Below, in pieces: positions 27,822-38,502 of a stretch of DNA of 64,000 nt. Position 1 is the stretch's first letter, and every line of letters starts with the position of its first letter. Made by a program: the position numbers and the translations under genes. The notes beneath the pieces were generated by a model, which worked only from the letters and a program-made list of their open reading frames with translations, had not been told where the DNA came from and made no database searches. Source of the stretch: Bacteroidia bacterium (GTDB lineage: Bacteria; Bacteroidota; Bacteroidia; J057); NCBI GenBank assembly GCA_033391075.1, contig JAWPMV010000001.1:5270001-5334000 (forward strand), given 5' to 3'.

Positions 27822-29099
27822 ATGTATCCTACAAGCAAAGATCTCTTCGAAAGAGCTGCCAAAACTATCCCTGGAGGCGTAAACTCTCCGGTTCGTGCCT
27901 TCAAATCTGTAGGCGGAAGTCCCCTATTCATCAAAAAGGCAGAAGGAGCCTATCTCTATGATGAAGATGATAGAAAATACATAGACTATATCGGTTCCTG
28001 GGGTCCTATGATTCTGGGTCATGCTTATCCTCCCGTAATTGAAGCTATCCGAGAGCAGGTGCTTTCCTCTACTTCTTATGGAGCACCTACCCGACTTGAG
28101 ATCGAAATGGCAGAACTCATCTGCGACATGGTTCCCAATGTGGACCTGGTCCGTATGGTGAACTCCGGAACGGAAGCCTGTATGAGCGCGATTCGCTTGG
28201 CAAGGGGATATACCGGTCGAAGCAAAATCATAAAGTTTGCCGGATGCTATCACGGGCATGGAGATTCTTTCCTGATCAAGGCAGGCAGTGGTGCCATGAC
28301 CCTCGGCATTCCCAATAGTCCCGGTGTAACGCCCGGTACTGCTCAGGATACGCTCCTGGCTCCTTTCAATGATATCGAAGCCATTAAAAGCCTTGCTTCA
28401 GATCATAAAGGGGAAATAGCAGCCATCATTGTTGAGCCTGTTGCTGGAAATATGGGATGTATACCCCCTCTTCCCGGCTATCTGGAAGGCATGCGTGAAA
28501 TTTGTACAGAGGAAGGCATTGTTCTCATTTTTGACGAAGTGATGACTGGATTCCGTCTGGCTCCCGGAGGTGCACAAGAATATCTGAACATAAATGCCGA
28601 TTTGGTAACATTGGGCAAAATTATTGGAGCAGGAATGCCTGTAGGAGCCTATGGTGGAAAGAAAGAGATTATGGATCATGTGGCTCCGGTTGGTCCGGTT
28701 TATCAGGCAGGAACTTTATCGGGAAATCCAATTGCCATGATCAGTGGACTGACCCTTTTGAAAGAACTTAAGGCGAAGCCTTCCATTTATACTGAGCTAG
28801 ATAAACGCTGTGCAGAACTGGCAGCAGGACTTTCAAGTGTATGTGAAAAAGCTGGAATCCCTTATCAAATCAATCGTGCGGGTTCGATGATCAGCCTCCA
28901 TTTTAATGAGGAAGCTGTAACAGATTTGGATACTTCTGCAGCAGGGGATCACGATCGTTTTCGCAAACTCTTTCATGATATGCTGGAGGCAGGCATTTAC
29001 CTACCCCCTTCTCCTTATGAATCATGGTTCCTTTCCGCAGCTCTGACAAATGAAGACATTGAGAAAACCATAGAAACCGCTAAGGGAAGCTTATTCTAA
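27822..29099 (+). CDS. hemL: glutamate-1-semialdehyde 2,1-aminomutase
   Basis: 425 residues, a class III PLP aminotransferase fold. Signatures are [63 protein letters not shown] and the PLP lysine Lys266 in [17 protein letters not shown]. It isomerises glutamate-1-semialdehyde to 5-aminolevulinate. It is the last gene of the plus-strand haem operon although it acts second in the pathway. The 31-base gap before it carries tandem-like aacactct / cgaacgct / aatacact sequence. Confidence 0.95.
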
Positions 29100-29475
29100 A
29101 CTTATGTATTCCTCAGATTTCTGAAATATTTATCTCCTTCGTTTAGCTTTAACAAAAGCTCGTTTTAAAGCGAGCTGATACGATTCGACAAAACAGAAAG
29201 TTTGCAAATTCGTAATATGGGAAATTCCTAAATTAGCGAATATGAAACTTATTCCCCCGTTAAGGTGGAGAATCCCTCCAAGCAGGAACTAATCCCACCC
29301 TTTGACACAATGTTGTTTGAATCGGCTATTTTATATGGGCAATTTTATACTAACGTTAACACGATTACGGGGTTTTTGGTAGGTGCTACTCCTTATATAT
29401 GAGAGATTAGCATGCTATTTCATACGCTGAGTCAGCTCATCGCCCATTTACCCCTACCCAATTTTGTATTTGGCC
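29100..29475. other. intergenic region after hemL
   Basis: About 375 bases with no gene. Near its start a near-palindrome (29157-29176, agctcg / cgagct with a G-U pair) overlaps an alternative stem (agcttt at 29145-29150, aaagct at 29155-29160); neither has a T-run, so a conventional terminator for the haem operon is not evident. The right part must hold the promoter of the large dehydrogenase-cytochrome gene, but no exact -7 match was found. Confidence 0.4.
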
Positions 29476-32400
29476 ATGAAGTTGACCAATAGTTCTTACA
29501 ATAGCATTACGACTGCTCGGATTCCTTTCTTAAAAAATATTCATCTTCGAAAAAGAAATTTATACTTCATTGTTGCCCTGAGCTTAATGGGCTTTGTTAT
29601 CCCTCTGGCTATAAGCATACAGGGCCTTGATTCGCCGGAACCCGTAGGTAAGTTTATTGATGGAGCATTACCCTCGGTCAAACCTGGGGGAGTTGCCCAA
29701 TGGGAAGTAGTTGATGCTTTCCCCAATCTAAGTTTTACCGATCCTTCCTTTATCGTTCCTACCCATGATGGAAGCCATTATTATATAGGGGAAAGAGGAG
29801 GGCGAATTTATCGTATTCCAAATGATGAAACTACCAGTACCAAAACTCTGGTATTAGATATATCCACCAATGTTGCCCAAATGAGTGATGGGGGATTTTA
29901 CAATTTTGTCCTGCATCCTGAATTTGGAAATCCACTTTCTCCCAATAGAGGCTATTTCTATGTGTATTATACCTGGAAAGATGCGGCGACTCCCGATCCA
30001 AGTGGTTTTCTGGGAACAGGTTTCCCCGGAAATTTCTACAATACATATTGTCGGCTCGCACGCTTCACGATCAATGATGGAAATATTGCGGCTGATCCTA
30101 GCAGCGAACAGGTAATGATTCATATCCGCATGTACAATGATTCTCATAGAGGCGGAGGAATGGCTTTTGACAATGATGGGTATTTTTATTTGACCATAGG
30201 AGACTTATACCGCTATCTAACGGCACAGCAAATTGATGATAATCTCGAAGGAGGAGTCATGCGCCTGGATGTAGATATGGATCTGAGTAGAAGTCATGCC
30301 CCTATAAAAAAGATGCCTTTTGCCGGAGGCAATGCAGATGAGATTTCCGGTGTAGGATATTTAATCCCCAATGACAATCCTTTCCTCGACCCCAGCGGGA
30401 CAAATTTCGAAGAATATTTTACGCTCGGACATAGAAATCCTTATCGCATGTCTTATGATAAGGTGGAAGACAGACTTTGGTCCAGTGAGATTGGCCAGTC
30501 AGATCGGGAGGAAATAAATGTCATTGAGAAAGGGAATAATTATGGATGGTCCTTCCGCGAGGGTACCATTTCAGCTCCCCGAACTCCTCCGAACCCTCTT
30601 TTAGGTACCCTTACAGAGCCTGTCATTGACTTTGACAGATCAGATGCCCGAGCAATTATTGGGGGATATGTTTATCGGGCTTCCAAATTTCCCAGTCTGG
30701 TAGGCAAATTTTTATGTGGAGACTGGCAGAATGACAATCTTTATGCCCTGACCTATGATGATGTCAGCAAAACTACGCATCGGGAATATCTATGTCGCTT
30801 CAATCCAGACGAATTGGTTTCATTTGGTGAAGACCCTCTCAATGGGGAAGTATTCATGATTAGTGCAGGAGAAAGTTTCGGCAATGTCCGGAGCATTTAT
30901 AAACTGGCACCAGCATCCGTTGCTCCTGCTGCTCCGGCACTCCTTTCTCAAACGGGCATCTTCAGCAATCTATCTACTATGGAAGTAGAAGATTATGCCA
31001 TTCCATATGAATTGAATGTAGCCTTTTGGTCAGACAGTGCAGCCAAAAGGCGCTGGATGATCGTACCCAATGATGGGGATCATGATACCTCAGAAGAAAA
31101 GATTAATTATACAGAAAAGGGAAACTGGCAATTCCCTAAAGGAGCCGTACTGGTCAAGCATTTTGATCTGGTTTTGGATGAGAGCAATCCTACTTCCACT
31201 CGCAAACTGGAAACCCGTTTGATGGTTCATGGAGATGATGGTGAATACTATGGATTGAGTTATCGTTGGCTGGACAATCAACTGGATGCTCAATTGCTAA
31301 CAAGTGCACGCGAAGATAGCTTTACCATCCAAACCGCTACGGGAAGCAAAGAAGTAGTTTGGTATTATCCAGATAGGGGTGAATGTATTACTTGCCATAA
31401 TGAAGTATCTGATTTTGTGCTCGGTCCCAGTGCCCGCCAACTCAATAAAAAAATCACCTACCCTAGCAGTGGCAGAAATGCAAACCAGATCAAGACACTT
31501 CAACATCTGGAGATGTTTCACGCTACGGTAGATACTAATGCCGCAGTTTTAGCCAATGTCGAAAGCTCTGCTCCTACCGATGACCTTAGTCAGCCATTGG
31601 AAGCTCGTGCGCGGGCATATTTGGATGCAAACTGTGCGTATTGTCATAGACCTGGAGCTGGCAATCGTGCCTTTTTTGATGCGCGCTTAAGTACTCCTTT
31701 GGAAAGTCAGGACTTGATCTATGGCAATGTGAATGATGATATTGGCATAGATGGAGCACGGGTAATCATCCCGGGTGATCCCGAAAGATCTGTTCTTTAC
31801 CAAAGGCTAAAGTCTGTACACGAGAGCATAGCCATGCCTCCTTTAGCCAAGAACAGAAGAGATGCTAAAGGCATCAATCTCATCGAAGACTGGATCAACT
31901 CCCTCAGTCCCGATCATATAGAAAGCAATGAATTCAGCCTGGGAAACACCCATTTTGATGATGGACTGTATGATGGATGGAGGGCTGTCATGATTATCAA
32001 TGAGAGCGATAGCTATACCAATAATAGCGGGGGTACAGAAGATATTCGCATAGAAGAGTTCAAATTCTTCGCAAAAGCTGAAGCCGATCCTGTGACTCCT
32101 TTTGTAGCCCGGAGAAATGCAGATAATGACTTTACGGTACTCGCTATCGGAGATACCCGATACAATACAGACTATGTTCCCGGACATAATGAGTTCTCAT
32201 TTAGTGATGGAAGTGCTCCGACAATAAGTCTGGCAGCAGGTGCAGAAATGGTGATCGGATTTATGGATGGAGAAGCCGATGGAACTGATCCCGGAAATGA
32301 AGCAGTAATCCCATATGATGCGGGAAGTCCGGCTGATGAAGTTTGGACTAGCGGTGGTTTGCTGGGATCAGAATCAGGAAGTATCAGTATAGGTTCAGCC

Positions 32401-33729
32401 CCTACACCTGGCTCAGATACTCAAAGCAATCTGCAAAGGAATTATCATTTCGCCATCGACTTTAGCATTACCTCCAGCAGCAATAAAACTCATCAAAAAA
32501 TCACCTTTCCCGAAATCAGTAGCAAGAAAACCAATGATCCTTCTTTTGCAGCTGGAGCTACTGCCAGTTCAGGATTGAGTGTGACATATCAACTCGTAGC
32601 TGGACCTGCCAGTGTTTCAGGAAATACGATTATTTTGGATGGAAATCCCGGTTTGGTCATCCTTGAAGCAAAACAAAGCGGAGATGCCACTTATGAAGAG
32701 GCCCCCAAAGTAAGGCAGTCTTTTTATGTAACGGATCCTGCTTCAGGTAGCGGAACCGGACTGTTGGGAGAATATCACTCTGATGCATCTTTAGGAAATC
32801 TTGTATTCAATCAAGTAGATTCAGAAATTGATTTTTACTGGGCGAATTGTCCCCCTGATCCTCGTTTGAGCTCAACAAATTTCTCGATCAAATGGTCAGG
32901 AGAAATAGAAGTCCCTGTAAGTGGTACTTATACCTTCTTTAGCAATACCGATGATGGAGTCAGGCTCTGGATGAATGGAACCCTCCTGATCAATGAGTGG
33001 CAAAACCAGAGCGTAAGAGAGTTTAGTGCTAGCATTCCCCTTACAGCGGGTGTGCGTGTTCCGATCGTCATGGAATACTATCAGGCCAATGCTTATGCCA
33101 GCGCACAATTGTCCTGGTCCAGTAACAATATTCCTCAGGAAATCGTTCCTACACAATTTCTTTATCCCAATGGAGGAACCTTTCCCGTTGAGCTCCTTGA
33201 TTTTCGGGCAGTTTTGCTTGAGGATCAGGTAAAAATAAACTGGGAAACTGTTATTGAGGAAAATGTTGATCGTTTCGTCATAGAGAGAAGCCAGGATGCG
33301 TTGAATTTCGAGCAAATCCAGCAGAAAAAGGCAGCAGGAAACAGGGTAGAATTAACGTCCTATGAGACTTATGATGAGCATCCTCTGAATGGCTCAAATT
33401 ATTACAGACTTAAATCGGTGGATTTCGACGGCAAATTCGAATATTCAAAAACTGTTGAGGTCCAGGTGGAATCTCCGAGCTATAGTAGCATCTACCCCAA
33501 TCCGCTAAGTCCGGGAGAAGAGTTGATTCTGGAGATAAACAGTGAAGACTCCGCTATCGCTATACTTCGCGACCTGAAAGGGAGAAGTATTCGTCAACAA
33601 AAAATAAGTGGGGAGGCAGGGATTCAAAAAATTCCGTTCAGCCTGAATGATCTCGCTCCGGGCATTTATTTCCTTCACATCAAAGATATACGCAATCGAA
33701 TCCATATCCATAAGGTTTTGATTCGATAA
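29476..33729 (+). CDS. PQQ-type sugar dehydrogenase / dihaem cytochrome c / PA14 fusion with T9SS tail
   Basis: 1417 residues from the ATG at 29476 (a TTG four codons upstream is less likely). After an N-terminal hydrophobic export segment, residues about 60-450 resemble the glucose/sorbosone dehydrogenase propeller (FVLHPEFG, GGGMAFDNDGYFYLTIGD, YFTLGHRNPYRMSYD, NYGWSFREG). Residues about 455-810 resemble the SO2930-type dihaem cytochrome family, with haem motifs CITCH (637-641) and CAYCH (720-724) and a possible Met ligand in MPPLAK. A beta domain and an Ig-like segment follow. PA14 spans about 1093-1231 (GLLGEYHSD, SNTDDGVRLWMNG). The tail has the FN3-like module (FVIERSQDALNF) and a T9SS sorting domain ending HIHKVLIR. 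Probably a surface-bound sugar oxidase passing electrons to its own haems. Confidence 0.85.
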   Translation: MKLTNSSYNSITTARIPFLKNIHLRKRNLYFIVALSLMGFVIPLAISIQGLDSPEPVGKFIDGALPSVKPGGVAQWEVVDAFPNLSFTDPSFIVPTHDGSHYYIGERGGRIYRIPNDETTSTKTLVLDISTNVAQMSDGGFYNFVLHPEFGNPLSPNRGYFYVYYTWKDAATPDPSGFLGTGFPGNFYNTYCRLARFTINDGNIAADPSSEQVMIHIRMYNDSHRGGGMAFDNDGYFYLTIGDLYRYLTAQQIDDNLEGGVMRLDVDMDLSRSHAPIKKMPFAGGNADEISGVGYLIPNDNPFLDPSGTNFEEYFTLGHRNPYRMSYDKVEDRLWSSEIGQSDREEINVIEKGNNYGWSFREGTISAPRTPPNPLLGTLTEPVIDFDRSDARAIIGGYVYRASKFPSLVGKFLCGDWQNDNLYALTYDDVSKTTHREYLCRFNPDELVSFGEDPLNGEVFMISAGESFGNVRSIYKLAPASVAPAAPALLSQTGIFSNLSTMEVEDYAIPYELNVAFWSDSAAKRRWMIVPNDGDHDTSEEKINYTEKGNWQFPKGAVLVKHFDLVLDESNPTSTRKLETRLMVHGDDGEYYGLSYRWLDNQLDAQLLTSAREDSFTIQTATGSKEVVWYYPDRGECITCHNEVSDFVLGPSARQLNKKITYPSSGRNANQIKTLQHLEMFHATVDTNAAVLANVESSAPTDDLSQPLEARARAYLDANCAYCHRPGAGNRAFFDARLSTPLESQDLIYGNVNDDIGIDGARVIIPGDPERSVLYQRLKSVHESIAMPPLAKNRRDAKGINLIEDWINSLSPDHIESNEFSLGNTHFDDGLYDGWRAVMIINESDSYTNNSGGTEDIRIEEFKFFAKAEADPVTPFVARRNADNDFTVLAIGDTRYNTDYVPGHNEFSFSDGSAPTISLAAGAEMVIGFMDGEADGTDPGNEAVIPYDAGSPADEVWTSGGLLGSESGSISIGSAPTPGSDTQSNLQRNYHFAIDFSITSSSNKTHQKITFPEISSKKTNDPSFAAGATASSGLSVTYQLVAGPASVSGNTIILDGNPGLVILEAKQSGDATYEEAPKVRQSFYVTDPASGSGTGLLGEYHSDASLGNLVFNQVDSEIDFYWANCPPDPRLSSTNFSIKWSGEIEVPVSGTYTFFSNTDDGVRLWMNGTLLINEWQNQSVREFSASIPLTAGVRVPIVMEYYQANAYASAQLSWSSNNIPQEIVPTQFLYPNGGTFPVELLDFRAVLLEDQVKINWETVIEENVDRFVIERSQDALNFEQIQQKKAAGNRVELTSYETYDEHPLNGSNYYRLKSVDFDGKFEYSKTVEVQVESPSYSSIYPNPLSPGEELILEINSEDSAIAILRDLKGRSIRQQKISGEAGIQKIPFSLNDLAPGIYFLHIKDIRNRIHIHKVLIR

Positions 33730-33778: not shown

Positions 33779-33832
33779 CATTTATTTTAGCTGCGGGAAA
33801 TCCGATTGCCTACATGCTTTCGTATATTAAAA

Positions 33833-34447
33833 ATGTTTCACCACAGATTCGCAGCTACAGAAACAAGCGCCATGAGACCCGCACAGGAAAACCAGCCCTT
33901 TCACAGTGCCTCCAGCTCTGAGCAAGAGCTTGTTGCAGCGCTTAAACGAAAAGAGCGTAAAGCTCTGGAATATCTCTATGACCACTACAGCGATGCCTTG
34001 TATGGGGTCATTTTTCAGATTATCCAAAATGATCCTTTGGCAGAAGATGCCTTGCAGGAGAGTTTTCTGAAAATTTGGAAGAAGATAGAAAGCTATGATC
34101 AAAGCAAAGGCCGACTCTTTACCTGGCTATTACGTATTTCCAGAAATACCGCCATCGATCTTTTACGCTCCAAACATCAAAAAGTAGCTAAATTCACCCT
34201 TGACTCTCCCCTAAGCAAAACAGAGAAAGTCCAAACGGAAAGTATCCCTACCGATCTGATCGGTCTGGGGGATTTATTACTCCATATGAAACAGGAACAA
34301 AGAATCCTGATGGAATACATTTATTTCAAAGGCTATTCTCAATCCGAAACCGCTAAACACTTAAATATCCCTTTGGGTACAGTAAAGACAAGGACCCGAC
34401 TGGCCTTAAATTATTTGAGGAGCATTGTAAAACAAGAAAAAATATGA
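33833..34447 (+). CDS. ECF-type RNA polymerase sigma factor
   Basis: About 204 residues from the ATG at 33833; a later ATG at 33872 is equally possible and the start is not settled. Region 2 is clear: FEYLYDHYS-like ALEYLYDHYSDALYGVIFQI, then AEDALQESFLKIWKKI and GRLFTWLLRISRNTAIDLLR. Region 4 ends with YIYFKGYSQSETAKHLNIPLGTVKTRTR, the helix-turn-helix for -35 recognition. There is no extra domain. It overlaps its anti-sigma gene by four bases (ATGA), the usual coupled arrangement. The regulon cannot be read from this window. Confidence 0.9.
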   Translation: MFHHRFAATETSAMRPAQENQPFHSASSSEQELVAALKRKERKALEYLYDHYSDALYGVIFQIIQNDPLAEDALQESFLKIWKKIESYDQSKGRLFTWLLRISRNTAIDLLRSKHQKVAKFTLDSPLSKTEKVQTESIPTDLIGLGDLLLHMKQEQRILMEYIYFKGYSQSETAKHLNIPLGTVKTRTRLALNYLRSIVKQEKI

Positions 34448-35031
34448 AATCATTCAATTCATCCAAGGAGCAAGAATTACTCGAAAAGTATGCCCTGGGA
34501 ATCGCAAAAGAGGAGGAAATGAAGCTTGTTGAACAATGGCTAAAGGATTCTCCCCAGCTTCGTGCTGATTTAGCAGAAATCACTGAGGCACTGGAAAACT
34601 TTGCCAGGGCCCATAAAAAACGTCCTCAATCTTCTATGAGAAAGCGGATTATGGACAAGGTTTTTACCGAGGGGGAATTTTCTTCCCCCCAAGCTTCAAC
34701 TAGAAAATCTTTGGAACACTGGTCGCAGCAAATCTCCGAATTTAAGCAACCAGAAAAACTGGAAAATCTACATACCATCATGCTGGAAAAAACGGAGAGC
34801 AGACGAAGTATGCTGGTTTGGATCAAAGAAAAACTGGAAGAAGAGGTTCATGATAAATATCTGGAGAGTTTTCTCGTCCTTTCCGGTTCCTGTAACTGCT
34901 ATTTTCATGGAAAACTGGTCAGGAGCATGCAGGCAGGCGAAAGTATGGAAATTCCCCTTCACACCCCTCACTGGATAGAAGTAACCTCAGCAGAACCCTT
35001 ACAATTGATCGTGCAGAGAAATGCGGCTTAG
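34444..35031 (+). CDS. soluble cupin-type anti-sigma factor
   Basis: 195 residues, coupled to the ECF sigma gene. The N-terminal 70 residues (LLEKYALGIAKEEEMKLVEQWL then SPQLRADLAEI) match the anti-sigma domain of Bacteroidota ECF regulators. The C-terminal 80 residues form a small cupin: HDKYLESFLVLSGSCNCYF, then MQAGESMEIPLHTPHWIEV and LQLIVQR. There is no transmembrane helix, unlike most Bacteroidota anti-sigma factors, and no HxxxCxxC zinc motif of the ChrR type is visible in the N-terminal part. By analogy with ChrR, the cupin may sense a small molecule, metal or oxidant in the cytoplasm and release the sigma factor. The signal is unknown. Confidence 0.75.
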   Translation: MKSFNSSKEQELLEKYALGIAKEEEMKLVEQWLKDSPQLRADLAEITEALENFARAHKKRPQSSMRKRIMDKVFTEGEFSSPQASTRKSLEHWSQQISEFKQPEKLENLHTIMLEKTESRRSMLVWIKEKLEEEVHDKYLESFLVLSGSCNCYFHGKLVRSMQAGESMEIPLHTPHWIEVTSAEPLQLIVQRNAA

Positions 35032-35648
35032 TTTTCAGAAGGCATACTAGCCAGCATTTGCAAGGTAAATCCACTTCCTTCTCTATAGGGACCTGGCTGA
35101 AGTTCGACTTCCTGCTCAGTCAGTTTTTCGATATTCACCAGGCGAAAAATATCTTCCAATTCCTCACGGGTATAGAGAAATTCCTTGAGCTTTGGGCCTC
35201 CTGTCGCCATTTCAAACTGTCTCTCGGAAAAAGCTTCAAACAAGAGCTTTCCCCCAGGTTTGAGGAAATTGAGGTAGCGGCGAAAAAGAGCCCGCCTCAA
35301 AGAGGGCGAAGGGTGAATAAAGATGAATGCGATGAGGTCAAATTTGCCTTCGGGCTGGTAAGTCGCAATATTTTCCAGTTTGTAATCGAAACGAACGCCA
35401 ATCTCTTCTGCAAAGTTCAGGGCTTTCTTCCGTCCTTCCTCACTAAAGTCTACGGCTTCTACCTCCCAGGTTCTGGTAGAAGCAAATACTGCATTTCGCC
35501 CCTCGCCTTCACCTGGCAAGAGCAATCTACCCGCCGGAGCCTCTTCCAGGTATTCCCGTAGAAAGGCATTGGGTTCACGGCCATAGACATATTCCTGTTG
35601 TCCAAACCGTTCATTCCAGAAACTGCTTTGTTCGAAAGGAAAATTCAT
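35028..35648 (-). CDS. class I SAM-dependent methyltransferase (TehB/TPMT-like)
   Basis: The ATG at 35648 (MNFPFEQSSFWNERF) fits the family start; the longer open frame is upstream read-through. 206 residues. The N-terminus YVYGREPNAFLREYL is the usual opening of this group. SAM-binding motif I is LLLPGEGEGRNAVFAS, followed by VEAVDFSEEGRKKA and FDLIAFIFIHPSPSLRR. Many such proteins methylate thiols, tellurite or small toxic molecules; the acceptor here is unknown. Cytoplasmic. Its stop overlaps the end of the anti-sigma gene on the other strand by three bases, and it is transcribed divergently from the DinB-like gene. Confidence 0.8.
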   Translation of the reverse strand: MNFPFEQSSFWNERFGQQEYVYGREPNAFLREYLEEAPAGRLLLPGEGEGRNAVFASTRTWEVEAVDFSEEGRKKALNFAEEIGVRFDYKLENIATYQPEGKFDLIAFIFIHPSPSLRRALFRRYLNFLKPGGKLLFEAFSERQFEMATGGPKLKEFLYTREELEDIFRLVNIEKLTEQEVELQPGPYREGSGFTLQMLASMPSEN

Positions 35649-35737
35649 TTTCGCAGATAGGTTTAAAGTAAATCTAGTATTTATTTTAACAGACTTATTA
35701 ACATTGACCCATAAATTGAGCCTTTTATTCCCCAAGT

Positions 35738-36226
35738 ATGCAAAGAGAACTCAAAAACATCGGATTCCAGATGAAGGCCCTTCAAAAAGGAGAAGCCTGG
35801 CACGGAAAAGCGCTTGAAGAAGCCCTTAAGGATCTTAGTTGGCAAAAAGCCCTCCAGCATCCCTTTCCCCATGCGCATAGCATCTGGGAATACGTCCTGC
35901 ATATCATAGCATGGAGAACCTTCGCTATAGAAAGGATCAAAGGGAATGCCGAATTCCACATAGAAATTGGAGGGGAAATTGATTGGCCAAAAGTAGAAGG
36001 AGCTTCTGAAAAAAGTTGGGAGGATACTCAGGTCCAACTCAGCAATTCCAGTCAGATACTCAGGGACTTACTCAGAGAAAAGAAAGATAGCTTCCTCGAT
36101 AGGCAGGTTGAGAAAAAAGCTTATTCATTTTATATCCTCTTGCATGGAATTGTACAACATGATGCCTATCATTGTGGTCAGATTGTTTTGACGAGAAAAT
36201 TTTTGGAACAATCTCATGCATCCTAA
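35738..36226 (+). CDS. DinB-superfamily protein
   Basis: 162 residues forming the four-helix DinB/YfiT bundle. The metal-ligand histidines are at HSIWEYVLHIIAWR (first) and GIVQHDAYHCGQIVLTRKF (last), the spacing expected for the single metal site. DinB-like proteins include thiol transferases using bacillithiol or mycothiol, and uncharacterised metal proteins; no substrate can be assigned. Cytoplasmic. It is followed after 23 bases by the GH3 gene, probably on one transcript, without an obvious functional link. Confidence 0.8.
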   Translation: MQRELKNIGFQMKALQKGEAWHGKALEEALKDLSWQKALQHPFPHAHSIWEYVLHIIAWRTFAIERIKGNAEFHIEIGGEIDWPKVEGASEKSWEDTQVQLSNSSQILRDLLREKKDSFLDRQVEKKAYSFYILLHGIVQHDAYHCGQIVLTRKFLEQSHAS

Positions 36227-36249
36227 TACTCATATAGCTTAGAAACAAG

Positions 36250-38502
36250 GTGAACAGCGATCTACTATCCCAATTAAGTTTGGAAGAAAAAGCCAAACTC
36301 ATGTCCGGCCAGGACCTCTGGTCAACTTTTCCTGTTGAAAGACTTGGAATTCCCTCTATTTATATGTCAGATGGGCCACATGGACTACGTAAAGTAGATC
36401 CTACTGTAGCCCTGGGAGAAAGTGTTCCCGCGACTTGCTTTCCAACGGCCTCGGCTATGGCATCCACCTGGAATGCCGACCTTATATATAAGGCAGGAGC
36501 TGCTATTGGGCAGGAGTGTTTGCGGCATGATGTGCAAATTCTTCTGGGACCGGGAGTCAATATCAAGCGCTCTCCATTAGGGGGTAGAAATTTTGAATAC
36601 TTTTCTGAAGATCCCCTATTGGCTGGAATACTGGCCGCTTCCCTGATATTAGGTCTGCAAAGTAAGGGAGTCGGCGCCTGCGTCAAGCATTTCGCAGCCA
36701 ACAATCAGGAGTTTGAACGTATGATCGGAAACTCTATCGTTGATGAGCGAACCCTGCGTGAAATTTACCTGACAGCTTTTGAGATTGTGGTAAAAGAAGC
36801 TCAGCCCTATGCTATCATGGCTGCTTATAATCAGGTAAATGGCATTTGGGCCAGTGAAAGTCGACGGCTATTGACCCAAATATTAAGAGATGAATGGGGA
36901 TACGAAGGCATAGTGATTTCTGATTGGGGAGCTGTAAATCATCCGGAGAAAGCCCTAGAAGCCGGACTCAATCTGGAAATGCCGGACAATCCACTAAGTG
37001 CTCCCAAGATTATCAAAGCTGTAGAAAGTGGGGAGCTTGCGGAAGAGGAATTGGATAAAATGGTAAGCAATCTGCTGAATGTTGTATTCAAAGCAGATGC
37101 AAATAGACAATCAAAGGCTTCTTTTGATATAGTTGAGCATCATGAATTGAGTAAGGAAGTTGCAGCCGAAAGTATGGTGCTCCTCAAAAATGAAGACAGC
37201 CTCCTCCCCATTCAAATAGAAGAACTATCCTCCATCGCCCTTATCGGAAATTTTGCCAAACATCCTCGTTATCAGGGTGCAGGTAGCTCCCGGGTAAATG
37301 CGAGTCGTAGTGAGAGTACCTTTGAGGCGCTACATGAATTATTGCCTCAACATGTCCAGATAAACTATGCTGAGGGCTATAATAATGAAGCCGATGAGGT
37401 TCATATGCAATTGCTATCTACTGCGAAAGAAGCTGCTGCCAAAAGCGATGTTGCTATTGTTCTGGTAGGCCTACCGGATTCCTTTGAAGCTGAAGGTAGC
37501 GACAGAAGTCATATGCACCTTCCTAAAAGTCATGATAGCCTGGTAGAAGAAATTCTCAAAGTTCAGCCCAATACTGTCGTGGTTCTTATCAATGGATCTG
37601 CGGTTGAATTGCCCTGGGCAGATCAATGCAAGGCCATTTTGGAATCCTGGTTAGGGGGGCAGGCAAGTGGGGCGGCTTTGGCTGAGACCCTTTTGGGCAT
37701 CAGAAATCCATCCGGAAAATTATCTGAGACTTTCCCCTTGAAACTGGAGCACAATTCTTCCTCCCTCAATTTCCCGGGAGAAAACAGGAAAGTAGAATAT
37801 AAAGAGAGGATTTATATCGGTTACAGATATTACGATACAAAAAAGCTGCCTGTGATGTATCCCTTTGGACATGGGCTTTCCTATACAACTTTTGAATACA
37901 GCAATCTTGCATTCAGCGATCAGGTAGTTGCAGATGATGATACTTGCCGACTGTCTTTCTTTTTGAAGAATACCGGAAATGTAAGAGGTAAAGAAGTGGT
38001 GCAGGTCTATGTCAGTCCTCCTTCAGCTTATGTGGATAGACCCGATCAAAAACTGGCTGCCTTTGATAAAATAGAACTGGATCCGGGTGCGACTGCTTTG
38101 GTGGAGTTTATTTTGGAGAAAAGAGCATTTAGTTATTATGATGTGGATTTGGAAGACTGGTTGATTGACTCAGGAAGCTTTGAGATTCGCATTGGCAGCT
38201 CCTCAAGGGACATCAGGCTGTGTAAAAGCCTGGAGATCATCAGCGAAAAAGCCAAGCCTAAAAAGGTCTATGACCGATACTCTACAGTTGCAGAATTACT
38301 CGAGCATCCTAAAGGAAAAGCTTATGTAGACAAAATGATGCCTTTATTCGGAGTTGATCCGGATACGGTAAGAGCGGAGGATCATGATATGCGTATCATC
38401 CTAATGTCCATGCCTATTGTGAAGCGCTGTAATTTCAGTCATGGCGCATATACAGAGGAGATGCTGGATGAGTTTCTGAAAGAGGTAAATGCAGGGGAAT
38501 AA
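36250..38502 (+). CDS. cytoplasmic GH3 beta-glucosidase
   Basis: 750 residues opening with a GTG; no in-frame ATG lies upstream and the next one is inside the first domain. GH3 TIM-barrel motifs are MSDGPHGLRK, LGPGVNIKRSPLGGRNFEYFSEDP, KHFAANNQE and the nucleophile Asp225 in IVISDWGAV. The alpha/beta sandwich follows (ALIGNFAKHPRYQGAGSS, LVGLPDSFEAEGSDR), then an FN3-like domain (GHGLSYTTFEYS). A further C-terminal extension of about 80 residues (KPKKVYDRYSTVAELLEHPKG) is known in some gut and anaerobe GH3 enzymes. No signal peptide, so oligosaccharides or glycosides would be cleaved inside the cell. The exact sugar is not predictable. Confidence 0.9.
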   Translation: MNSDLLSQLSLEEKAKLMSGQDLWSTFPVERLGIPSIYMSDGPHGLRKVDPTVALGESVPATCFPTASAMASTWNADLIYKAGAAIGQECLRHDVQILLGPGVNIKRSPLGGRNFEYFSEDPLLAGILAASLILGLQSKGVGACVKHFAANNQEFERMIGNSIVDERTLREIYLTAFEIVVKEAQPYAIMAAYNQVNGIWASESRRLLTQILRDEWGYEGIVISDWGAVNHPEKALEAGLNLEMPDNPLSAPKIIKAVESGELAEEELDKMVSNLLNVVFKADANRQSKASFDIVEHHELSKEVAAESMVLLKNEDSLLPIQIEELSSIALIGNFAKHPRYQGAGSSRVNASRSESTFEALHELLPQHVQINYAEGYNNEADEVHMQLLSTAKEAAAKSDVAIVLVGLPDSFEAEGSDRSHMHLPKSHDSLVEEILKVQPNTVVVLINGSAVELPWADQCKAILESWLGGQASGAALAETLLGIRNPSGKLSETFPLKLEHNSSSLNFPGENRKVEYKERIYIGYRYYDTKKLPVMYPFGHGLSYTTFEYSNLAFSDQVVADDDTCRLSFFLKNTGNVRGKEVVQVYVSPPSAYVDRPDQKLAAFDKIELDPGATALVEFILEKRAFSYYDVDLEDWLIDSGSFEIRIGSSSRDIRLCKSLEIISEKAKPKKVYDRYSTVAELLEHPKGKAYVDKMMPLFGVDPDTVRAEDHDMRIILMSMPIVKRCNFSHGAYTEEMLDEFLKEVNAGE

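Follow-up and report, generated by a model that had tools for sequence, protein, structure and literature searches.

A T9SS-tailed chain of GSDH-type propeller, two haem c motifs and sugar-binding-type module as a possible carbohydrate-anchored redox protein in a Bacteroidia bacterium

What might a single polypeptide do that carries a sugar dehydrogenase-like propeller, two c-type haem motifs, a PA14 domain and a secretion tail? Such a polypeptide is encoded at 29476-33729 (+) of the window, by which we mean the whole 64,000-nucleotide stretch analyzed here (positions 5,270,001 to 5,334,000 of contig JAWPMV010000001.1, assembly GCA_033391075.1, from a Bacteroidia bacterium). A first-pass annotation had read it as a surface electron-transfer unit that binds a polymer, oxidizes the sugar with pyrroloquinoline quinone (PQQ) and passes the electrons to its own haems. 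The reading that we favor, with confidence close to even, is a carbohydrate-anchored modular redox protein with a type IX secretion system (T9SS) tail, predicted from sequences and structure models, in which a constant core would be combined with an exchangeable tail of sugar-binding type. The observation is sound and the make-up of the protein is of greater interest than the first description suggested, while the story of PQQ-driven electron transfer is only partly supported.

The gene encodes 1417 aa from an ATG at 29476 in a single uninterrupted frame; the open frame itself reaches 29464-33729 (+), from an upstream TTG. By curated models, the domain order is a GSDH propeller (118 bits; Pfam cut-off, 25), the SO2930 dihaem unit, PA14 and a T9SS tail, so that the annotated chain of propeller, two haem motifs, PA14 domain and T9SS tail is borne out. 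The SO2930 model TIGR03806 scores 233 bits at residues 487-810, below its cut-off of 313, yet it is matched end to end (positions 2-314 of 314), with two CXXCH motifs and the MP motif present. The PA14 region matches the RsgI3 PA14 pair (6qe7) at E 4e-60, and two models recognize the T9SS tail at residues 1339-1416 (27.6 bits, cut-off 27; 30.1 bits, cut-off 23). The base composition of the gene is 0.439 against 0.437 for the window.

The carbohydrate-directed part of the reading rests on the family in the same genome. In this 9.49-Mb genome, propeller and dihaem unit share a single frame in six genes, and two further genes encode stand-alone dihaem proteins above the TIGR03806 cut-off of 313 (406 and 343 bits). 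A module of sugar-binding type, as judged from family names, is present in 6/6 fused members, in six differing sets: PA14; PA14 with two F5/8 domains and a dockerin; a ricin lectin, which here separates the propeller from the dihaem unit; NPCBM and PKD; GH115_C with two PA14; and an L-type lectin. Among the first eight listed T9SS-tailed proteins of this genome outside the family (frames of 900-1500 aa), such a module was seen in 1/8 (malectin), or 2/8 counting DUF1349; for this small set, Fisher's test gives p 0.002 and 0.009, respectively. On these counts, we kept the annotated carbohydrate-directed surface redox role as the best reading.

Identity among the six cores is 36-55 percent, and five of them resemble some protein from another genome more than they resemble any sibling (a tie in the sixth case), which rules out recent local duplication. 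An assembly error joining two genes, a worry raised at the outset, is also ruled out, since the propeller-dihaem core recurs in one frame in five paralogs of the same genome, six genes in all, and in 76 sequences elsewhere. The 82-row core alignment used below takes these 76 from 85 frames of other genomes, nine having been dropped for low core coverage.

A pattern scan of other genomes gave 203 relatives, and the best 80 loci were retained. Among these are Bacteroidota, Verrucomicrobiota, Planctomycetota, Myxococcales, Calditrichia, Oligoflexales, and the gammaproteobacteria Thiocapsa and Thiogranum. Most of these relatives have long tails. In 81 tails (76 of 77 locus tails and five from the own genome, excluding the paralog with the ricin insert), the families listed, which may co-occur, include the T9SS tail (34), PA14 (14), NPCBM (8), F5/8 (7), LamG (7), L-type lectin (4), and ricin-type and CBM4_9 (at least 6 each). 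Of 118 genomes sampled evenly across the phylum, the own genome alone has a long frame that matches over the full length; among 40 relatives, such a frame occurs in 3/12 other genomes of the same family and in one more of the class. The features of the window protein are as follows.

29476..33729 (+), coding sequence, 1417 aa in one frame
29554..29622 (+), N-terminal hydrophobic stretch, residues 27-49, a likely export signal (hydropathy maximum 2.3, 19-residue windows starting at 29-31)
29692..30924 (+), six-bladed GSDH-fold propeller, residues ~73-483 (Pfam GSDH; structure model)
30145..30147 (+), His224, equivalent of the catalytic His of GSDHs (82/82 rows; register from hhalign)
30433..30435 (+), Arg320, equivalent of the PQQ-contacting Arg, GxRNP motif (82/82 rows)
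30919..31527 (+), P460/c'-beta-like beta-barrel with haem 1 motif, residues ~482-684, predicted from the structure model
31156..31158 (+), Lys561, on the column of the P460 cross-link lysine (invariance; hidden Markov model register)
31384..31398 (+), haem 1 motif CITCH, residues 637-641 (kept in 82/82)
31573..31911 (+), His/Met cytochrome c domain with haem 2 motif, residues ~700-812 (CAYCH and Met787 conserved)
31633..31647 (+), haem 2 motif CAYCH, residues 720-724 (C723 in 81/82)
31834..31836 (+), Met787 (MPPLAK), probable axial ligand of haem 2 (82/82 rows)
31993..32730 (+), stretch with no domain match, residues 840-1085 (Pfam, solved-structure search)
32755..33147 (+), PA14 domain, residues 1094-1224 (Pfam, 90 bits)
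33490..33723 (+), T9SS type A sorting tail, residues 1339-1416 (Pfam/NCBIfam)

Is the propeller a PQQ enzyme? Its fold belongs with the six-bladed GSDH propellers (Pfam 118 bits; Z 33-39). A model of residues 40-840 (predicted local distance difference test score [pLDDT] 89, predicted template modelling score [pTM] 0.72) gave VIA-align Z values of 38.9 to 7cdy, 38.4 to 2g8s and 38.0 to HHIP (7pgm); bacterial GSDHs and human HHIP are about level at the top of the list (Z 37.4-38.9), followed by soluble glucose dehydrogenase (sGDH; Z 33-35) and the AA12 fold (Z 27-29). Identity is highest to HHIP (26 percent), with a PQQ-family apo enzyme next (25 percent), and a motif of the FGED..GEVY type in the last blade is shared with HHIP. 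Across several phyla, His224, Arg320, Gly340 and Glu345/346 are invariant (82/82), and the Asn after Arg320 is kept in 33/82. The residues that usually clamp PQQ fared differently in an alignment of 72 rows (the window protein, 4/5 paralogs and 67/75 other cores) by profile (hhalign) to classical GSDHs. The Lys377-type Lys occurs in 0/72 at the aligned column, some rows having a Lys two or three positions further, and the Arg406/408-type R.R clamp is absent from 71/72 and present in 1/72 (L094, just ahead of the aligned motif); Arg406 and Arg408 make up this clamp in sGDH. By comparison, seven classical GSDHs keep R.R in 7/7, the Lys in 5/7, the Arg in 7/7 and the His column in 4/7; since 3/7 have lost that His column, the classical set is itself not uniform. 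The PQQ-dehydrogenase subfamily model TIGR03606 gives 54 bits against a cut-off of 435.

The search for PQQ synthesis genes pointed the same way. No pqqC was found in the own genome by profile search, and none passed the cut-off in 118 phylum genomes (0/118; weak matches in 8/118). Of the 47 core-bearing genomes, of unstated completeness, that were searched via 47/80 loci, 44 have no pqqC over cut-off; four gave a match and three passed, all Myxococcota, which serve as positive control for the search. For pqqE, matches stayed below cut-off (best 73 bits vs 381), as in all 14 controls, and this search had no positive control.

These results bear on one explanation that would keep the original enzymology: a PQQ-scavenging sugar dehydrogenase passing electrons via haem 1 and then haem 2, with PQQ held by residues other than the sGDH clamp. 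We regard it as doubtful. The GSDH fold (Z 33-39 to PQQ enzymes) and the invariant catalytic His, Arg and calcium-site Gly speak for it, and so does fungal AA12, which lacks the sGDH Lys377 and one clamp Arg and still binds PQQ (PMC6881789, PMC4133262). AA12, however, retains one Arg of the clamp region, which is missing in the present family, and the Asn that contacts PQQ O4 in AA12 is the one kept in only 33/82. Also in its favor, six classical GSDHs of the own genome retain the R.R clamp. For 206 Bacteroidota with the PQQ importer PqqU, PMC12124388 reports none with PQQ synthesis genes; therefore, scavenging is usual in this phylum and missing synthesis is not decisive. On the other side stand the TIGR03606 score, the absent pqqC and a pair of GSDH-annotated domains in Teredinibacter TERTU_3803, which is reported to have shown no PQQ binding in isothermal titration calorimetry and no glucose oxidation (PMC10916295); the comparison with the present protein is by annotation. 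Taken together, the alignment argues against canonical PQQ binding, and PQQ might instead be held by other residues, as in AA12. The "PQQ-type" label thus holds for the fold and is weak as a claim about the cofactor: of the ligands that the first-pass annotation proposed to check, His224 and Arg320 are in place in 82/82 while the Lys and R.R are lost, and the synthesis genes that it asked for gave no pqqC in the own genome.

Three other GSDH proteins of the own genome (L104:1262-2926, L100:793-2379 and L102:741-2285) each contain one cytochrome-like segment with CXXCH and retain the R.R clamp. The segment is C-terminal in one of them and N-terminal in the other two, so the fusion of cytochrome and GSDH has taken several forms in this genome.

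The likeness to HHIP raises a second explanation: the propeller only binds, as HHIP does, and all catalysis takes place in the haem 1 pocket, which could for example act as a peroxidase, oxidize groups on a substrate or respond to a gas. HHIP ties with the best structural matches (Z 38.0) and has the same FGED..GEVY motif in its last blade; the PDB entries listed include HHIP solved with heparin, and HHIP is not known to have enzyme activity. A P460-like haem 1 with an invariant Lys, discussed below, would supply the active site. Conservation of His224, Arg320, Gly340 and Glu345/346 in 82/82 goes beyond the apparent need of a binding surface, an objection softened by HHIP itself showing the aligned His. 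Overall, we consider a purely binding propeller unlikely.

What, then, are the two haems? Folded alone with 74 sequences, the haem unit gave a model with pLDDT 91 and pTM 0.89. In a second look at 999 Foldseek candidates, all 13 entries listed at Z>=5 were cytochromes P460 or c'-beta (Z 5.0-7.6 over model residues 1-208, which cover the barrel with the first CXXCH), and the next row had Z 4.0. From this model, the haem 1 domain probably has a P460/c'-beta-like fold. The register of the lysine agrees: with a hidden Markov model (HMM) built from ten P460-family domains, five of them bearing the cross-link lysine, Lys561 fell on the cross-link column in 33/33 aligned cases (74 examined), although the members are related and the counts therefore not independent. 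The column was fixed via Lys106 and Ala131 of NsP460 (residues from Table 2 of PMC11928373), NsP460 having Ala at the carboxylate position. Lys561 is invariant (82/82 fused, 74/74 haem units, 22/22 stand-alone), whereas the neighboring His562 is kept in 72/82 fused and 1/22 stand-alone members; Glu579/Arg581, Tyr596/Trp598, Met787 and both CXXCH motifs are shared with 22/22 stand-alone members. A real cross-link between haem 1 and Lys561 we consider less likely than not.

Sequence comparison backs the P460-like barrel weakly but in the same direction. When 48 barrels (48/74 haem-unit sequences) were scanned, Pfam P460 (PF16694) was listed for 7/48, the most of any family, all sub-threshold (best E 0.054), and for 4/10 stand-alone proteins (best E 0.011) over most of the model. 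Profile comparison (hhalign) of the 48 barrels with the ten P460 domains aligned only the CXXCH, at probability 34.5 (best of 30 column shuffles, 0.9; reversed, 0.2), and with 70 rows, in which L012 and L013 were entered twice, aligned the lysine motif at probability 28. The P460 HMM ranked the 74 dihaem units over neighboring open reading frames with an area under the receiver operating characteristic curve of 0.993 (201/367 neighbors scored), falling to 0.80 against the six neighbors with CXXCH, all with domain scores under 10 bits; part of the P460 signal is therefore the haem motif.

Several results weigh against the P460 assignment. Foldseek on the haem-unit model returned nothing under E 0.001; the best Z of 7.6 lies within the range of common or chance arrangements, and the list re-ranks Foldseek's own candidates. 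A profile search of PDB sequences with the barrel retrieved no P460 and one chance match (E 1.4), and the best Pfam P460 score of the stand-alone proteins is 16.6 bits against a cut-off of 27. The lowest single E-value among the 48 barrels belongs to the unrelated cold-shock model CSDE1 (0.00062, 3/48). Short CXXCH-centered matches to ordinary Pfam cytochrome c, above cut-off, occur at the first haem motif in the two stand-alone proteins of the own genome (L012 and L013) and in 2/10 other stand-alone members; matches of this kind can arise from any c-type haem motif. Finally, the distal carboxylate of P460 (Glu96 type) was not matched: Glu579, which is invariant and sits on the next strand of the model, lies on its column in 0/8 aligned cases. 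A role of Glu579 as the P460 carboxylate is thus not supported.

Haem 2 looks like a usual His/Met electron-transfer haem. Its domain shows a weak match to the C-terminal haem of FoxE (E 0.0023); a FoxE-like reading of both haems was rejected, since only the second matches, and weakly. The annotated "dihaem cytochrome" therefore stands as far as two CXXCH motifs are present, but they probably mark two unlike haems, one P460-like and one His/Met c, and a plain wire of two haems is then not what first suggests itself. As a separate observation, a 437-aa frame at L108 (genome G145) holds two P460-family domains, the first with both cross-link lysine and distal glutamate.

A wire of some kind is what a third explanation proposes, in which the haems only link partner oxidases to electron donors or acceptors outside, and the propeller is a vestige. 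Apart from the FoxE-like haem 2, it can draw on CjX183, the c-type domain of the carbohydrate-binding module (CBM)-bearing Cbp2D, which can donate electrons to, and activates, lytic polysaccharide monooxygenases (PMC8981238); the X183 domains of Teredinibacter, however, are reported to have given no electrons to such an enzyme (PMC10916295). Two haem motifs would be few for a long conduit, and a P460-type haem with an open site would make a poor relay. We judge this conduit role improbable.

Under the favored reading of a carbohydrate-anchored modular redox protein, the constant core, as seen by sequence or model, has three parts: (a) a propeller of GSDH/HHIP type in which a His and an Arg are invariant but the usual PQQ clamp is missing, (b) a barrel resembling P460/c'-beta that holds the haem 1 motif and the invariant lysine, and (c) a cytochrome c of His/Met type that holds the haem 2 motif. 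Both haems would be attached in the periplasm before the chain leaves via T9SS, and the tail may then hold it on a polysaccharide. The redox chemistry would most likely be carried out by the P460-cytochrome c unit, in which haem 1 may offer an open site for substrate or ligand and haem 2 may pass the electrons on; the propeller might position the sugar or oxidize it in some non-canonical way. At two places, the genome encodes proteins that score above cut-off for PF01578, a family of cytochrome c assembly, and periplasmic attachment of haem c is therefore plausible. Against this reading, ResB was not found in the genome search, the invariant His and Arg hint that the propeller may itself be catalytic, and the T9SS tail is present in 4/6 own members, the other two being without it. 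Of what was first proposed for the whole protein, the chain layout and, as best reading, the carbohydrate-directed role survive, canonical PQQ use is not supported, and the dihaem part is revised.

The two paralogs without the tail lie at L009:5296-10140 and L009:10823-14239; T9SS tails are otherwise abundant in this genome. At its end, the first of the two has a dockerin type I match above cut-off, and the end of the second aligns similarly. In the window protein itself, residues 840-1085 (31993-32730) gave no Pfam match at E 0.01 and a single one, at E 0.67, in the solved-structure search; they are possibly unrecognized beta-sandwich modules.

The stand-alone units offer a view of the haem unit outside the fusion. 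One of them, with a lipoprotein-like start (L013:2820-5185; own genome, C4), adjoins a TIGR03805 beta-helix gene. In 11/20 fetched cases, a beta-helix gene lies in the same stretch as the stand-alone unit, within ~215 bases in ten. We know of no redox center in the beta-helix scaffold; the haem unit therefore probably does its own redox chemistry.

Does the genomic neighborhood say more? The gene follows hemL, which ends at 29099, 376 bases upstream, confirming the annotated spacing; ahead of hemL lie hemA, hemC, hemE, coproporphyrinogen oxidase and porphobilinogen synthase. No flanking gene is conserved across the 80 core-bearing loci, the most widely shared neighbor cluster spanning 5/80, which speaks against both a haem-operon link and a dedicated partner gene. 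The protein therefore seems self-contained and the haem operon looks incidental, in line with the initial caution that this neighborhood may be chance. Just downstream (33806-38502) are an extracytoplasmic function (ECF) sigma factor, a cupin-domain protein with weak anti-sigma matches, DinB and then a GH3 enzyme, whose nearest model is an exo-alpha-(1->6)-L-arabinopyranosidase (798 bits vs a cut-off of 1300).

What would follow from all this? If the clamp is truly lost and haem 1 is P460-like, the names "PQQ-dependent sugar dehydrogenase" and "dihaem cytochrome" mislead, and there would be a widespread extracellular redox family with chemistry yet to be assigned. In its boldest form, which we put forward as a speculation more likely wrong than right, SO2930/TIGR03806 would be an unrecognized P460 branch, its Lys-crosslinked catalytic haem wired to a cytochrome c and brought to polysaccharides by exchangeable lectin tails with a PQQ-free propeller, oxidizing glycans or their substituents outside the cell; the branch would then be spread over Bacteroidota, Verrucomicrobiota, Planctomycetota and others. 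The P460 review covers proteobacterial proteins in nitrogen metabolism and gas binding (PMC11928373), and a carbohydrate-linked branch would therefore be unexpected. In its main text, the words "fusion" and "dihem" occur nowhere (PMC11928373), and in the open-licence literature covered, we saw neither a link between SO2930/TIGR03806 and P460 nor a lectin-swapping T9SS family.

Several known systems resemble parts of this protein. The combination of a GSDH-type propeller, a cytochrome and a CBM in one chain is already in print. Fungal AA12 CcPDH (AA8-AA12-CBM1) is likewise a single secreted chain with a six-bladed dehydrogenase-type propeller, a cytochrome and a CBM, but its haem b domain AA8 is N-terminal and its PQQ binding is demonstrated, whereas here two haem c motifs follow the propeller; the PQQ residues of AA12 are of the Arg273, His539, His560 and Arg621 types, and our comparison with it is by fold only (Z 27-29). 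Teredinibacter turnerae TERTU_3803 and TERTU_2567, compared with CcPDH by their own authors (PMC12055684), also join a secreted GSDH-annotated propeller, a c-type cytochrome and CBMs (PMC12055684, PMC10916295), though they are described with other modules (X122, X132, X173, X183), and the likeness is by description only. The soluble aldose/glucose dehydrogenases YliI and sGDH share the fold, the catalytic His, the Arg and the calcium-site Gly, and differ in the PQQ Lys and Arg pair, lost here, and in the last blade, here HHIP-like. The haem 1 domain resembles cytochromes P460/c'-beta in its modelled barrel fold (Z 5.0-7.6), the CXXCH at the C-terminal end and the lysine in register; those are small, mainly dimeric single-haem proteins (PMC11928373), whereas here the domain is one of several in a 1417-aa chain. 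With SO2930/TIGR03806 (chp_HNE_0200), finally, the window protein shares both CXXCH motifs, Lys561 and Met787, and differs from it by the fusion to a propeller and a score of 233 bits.

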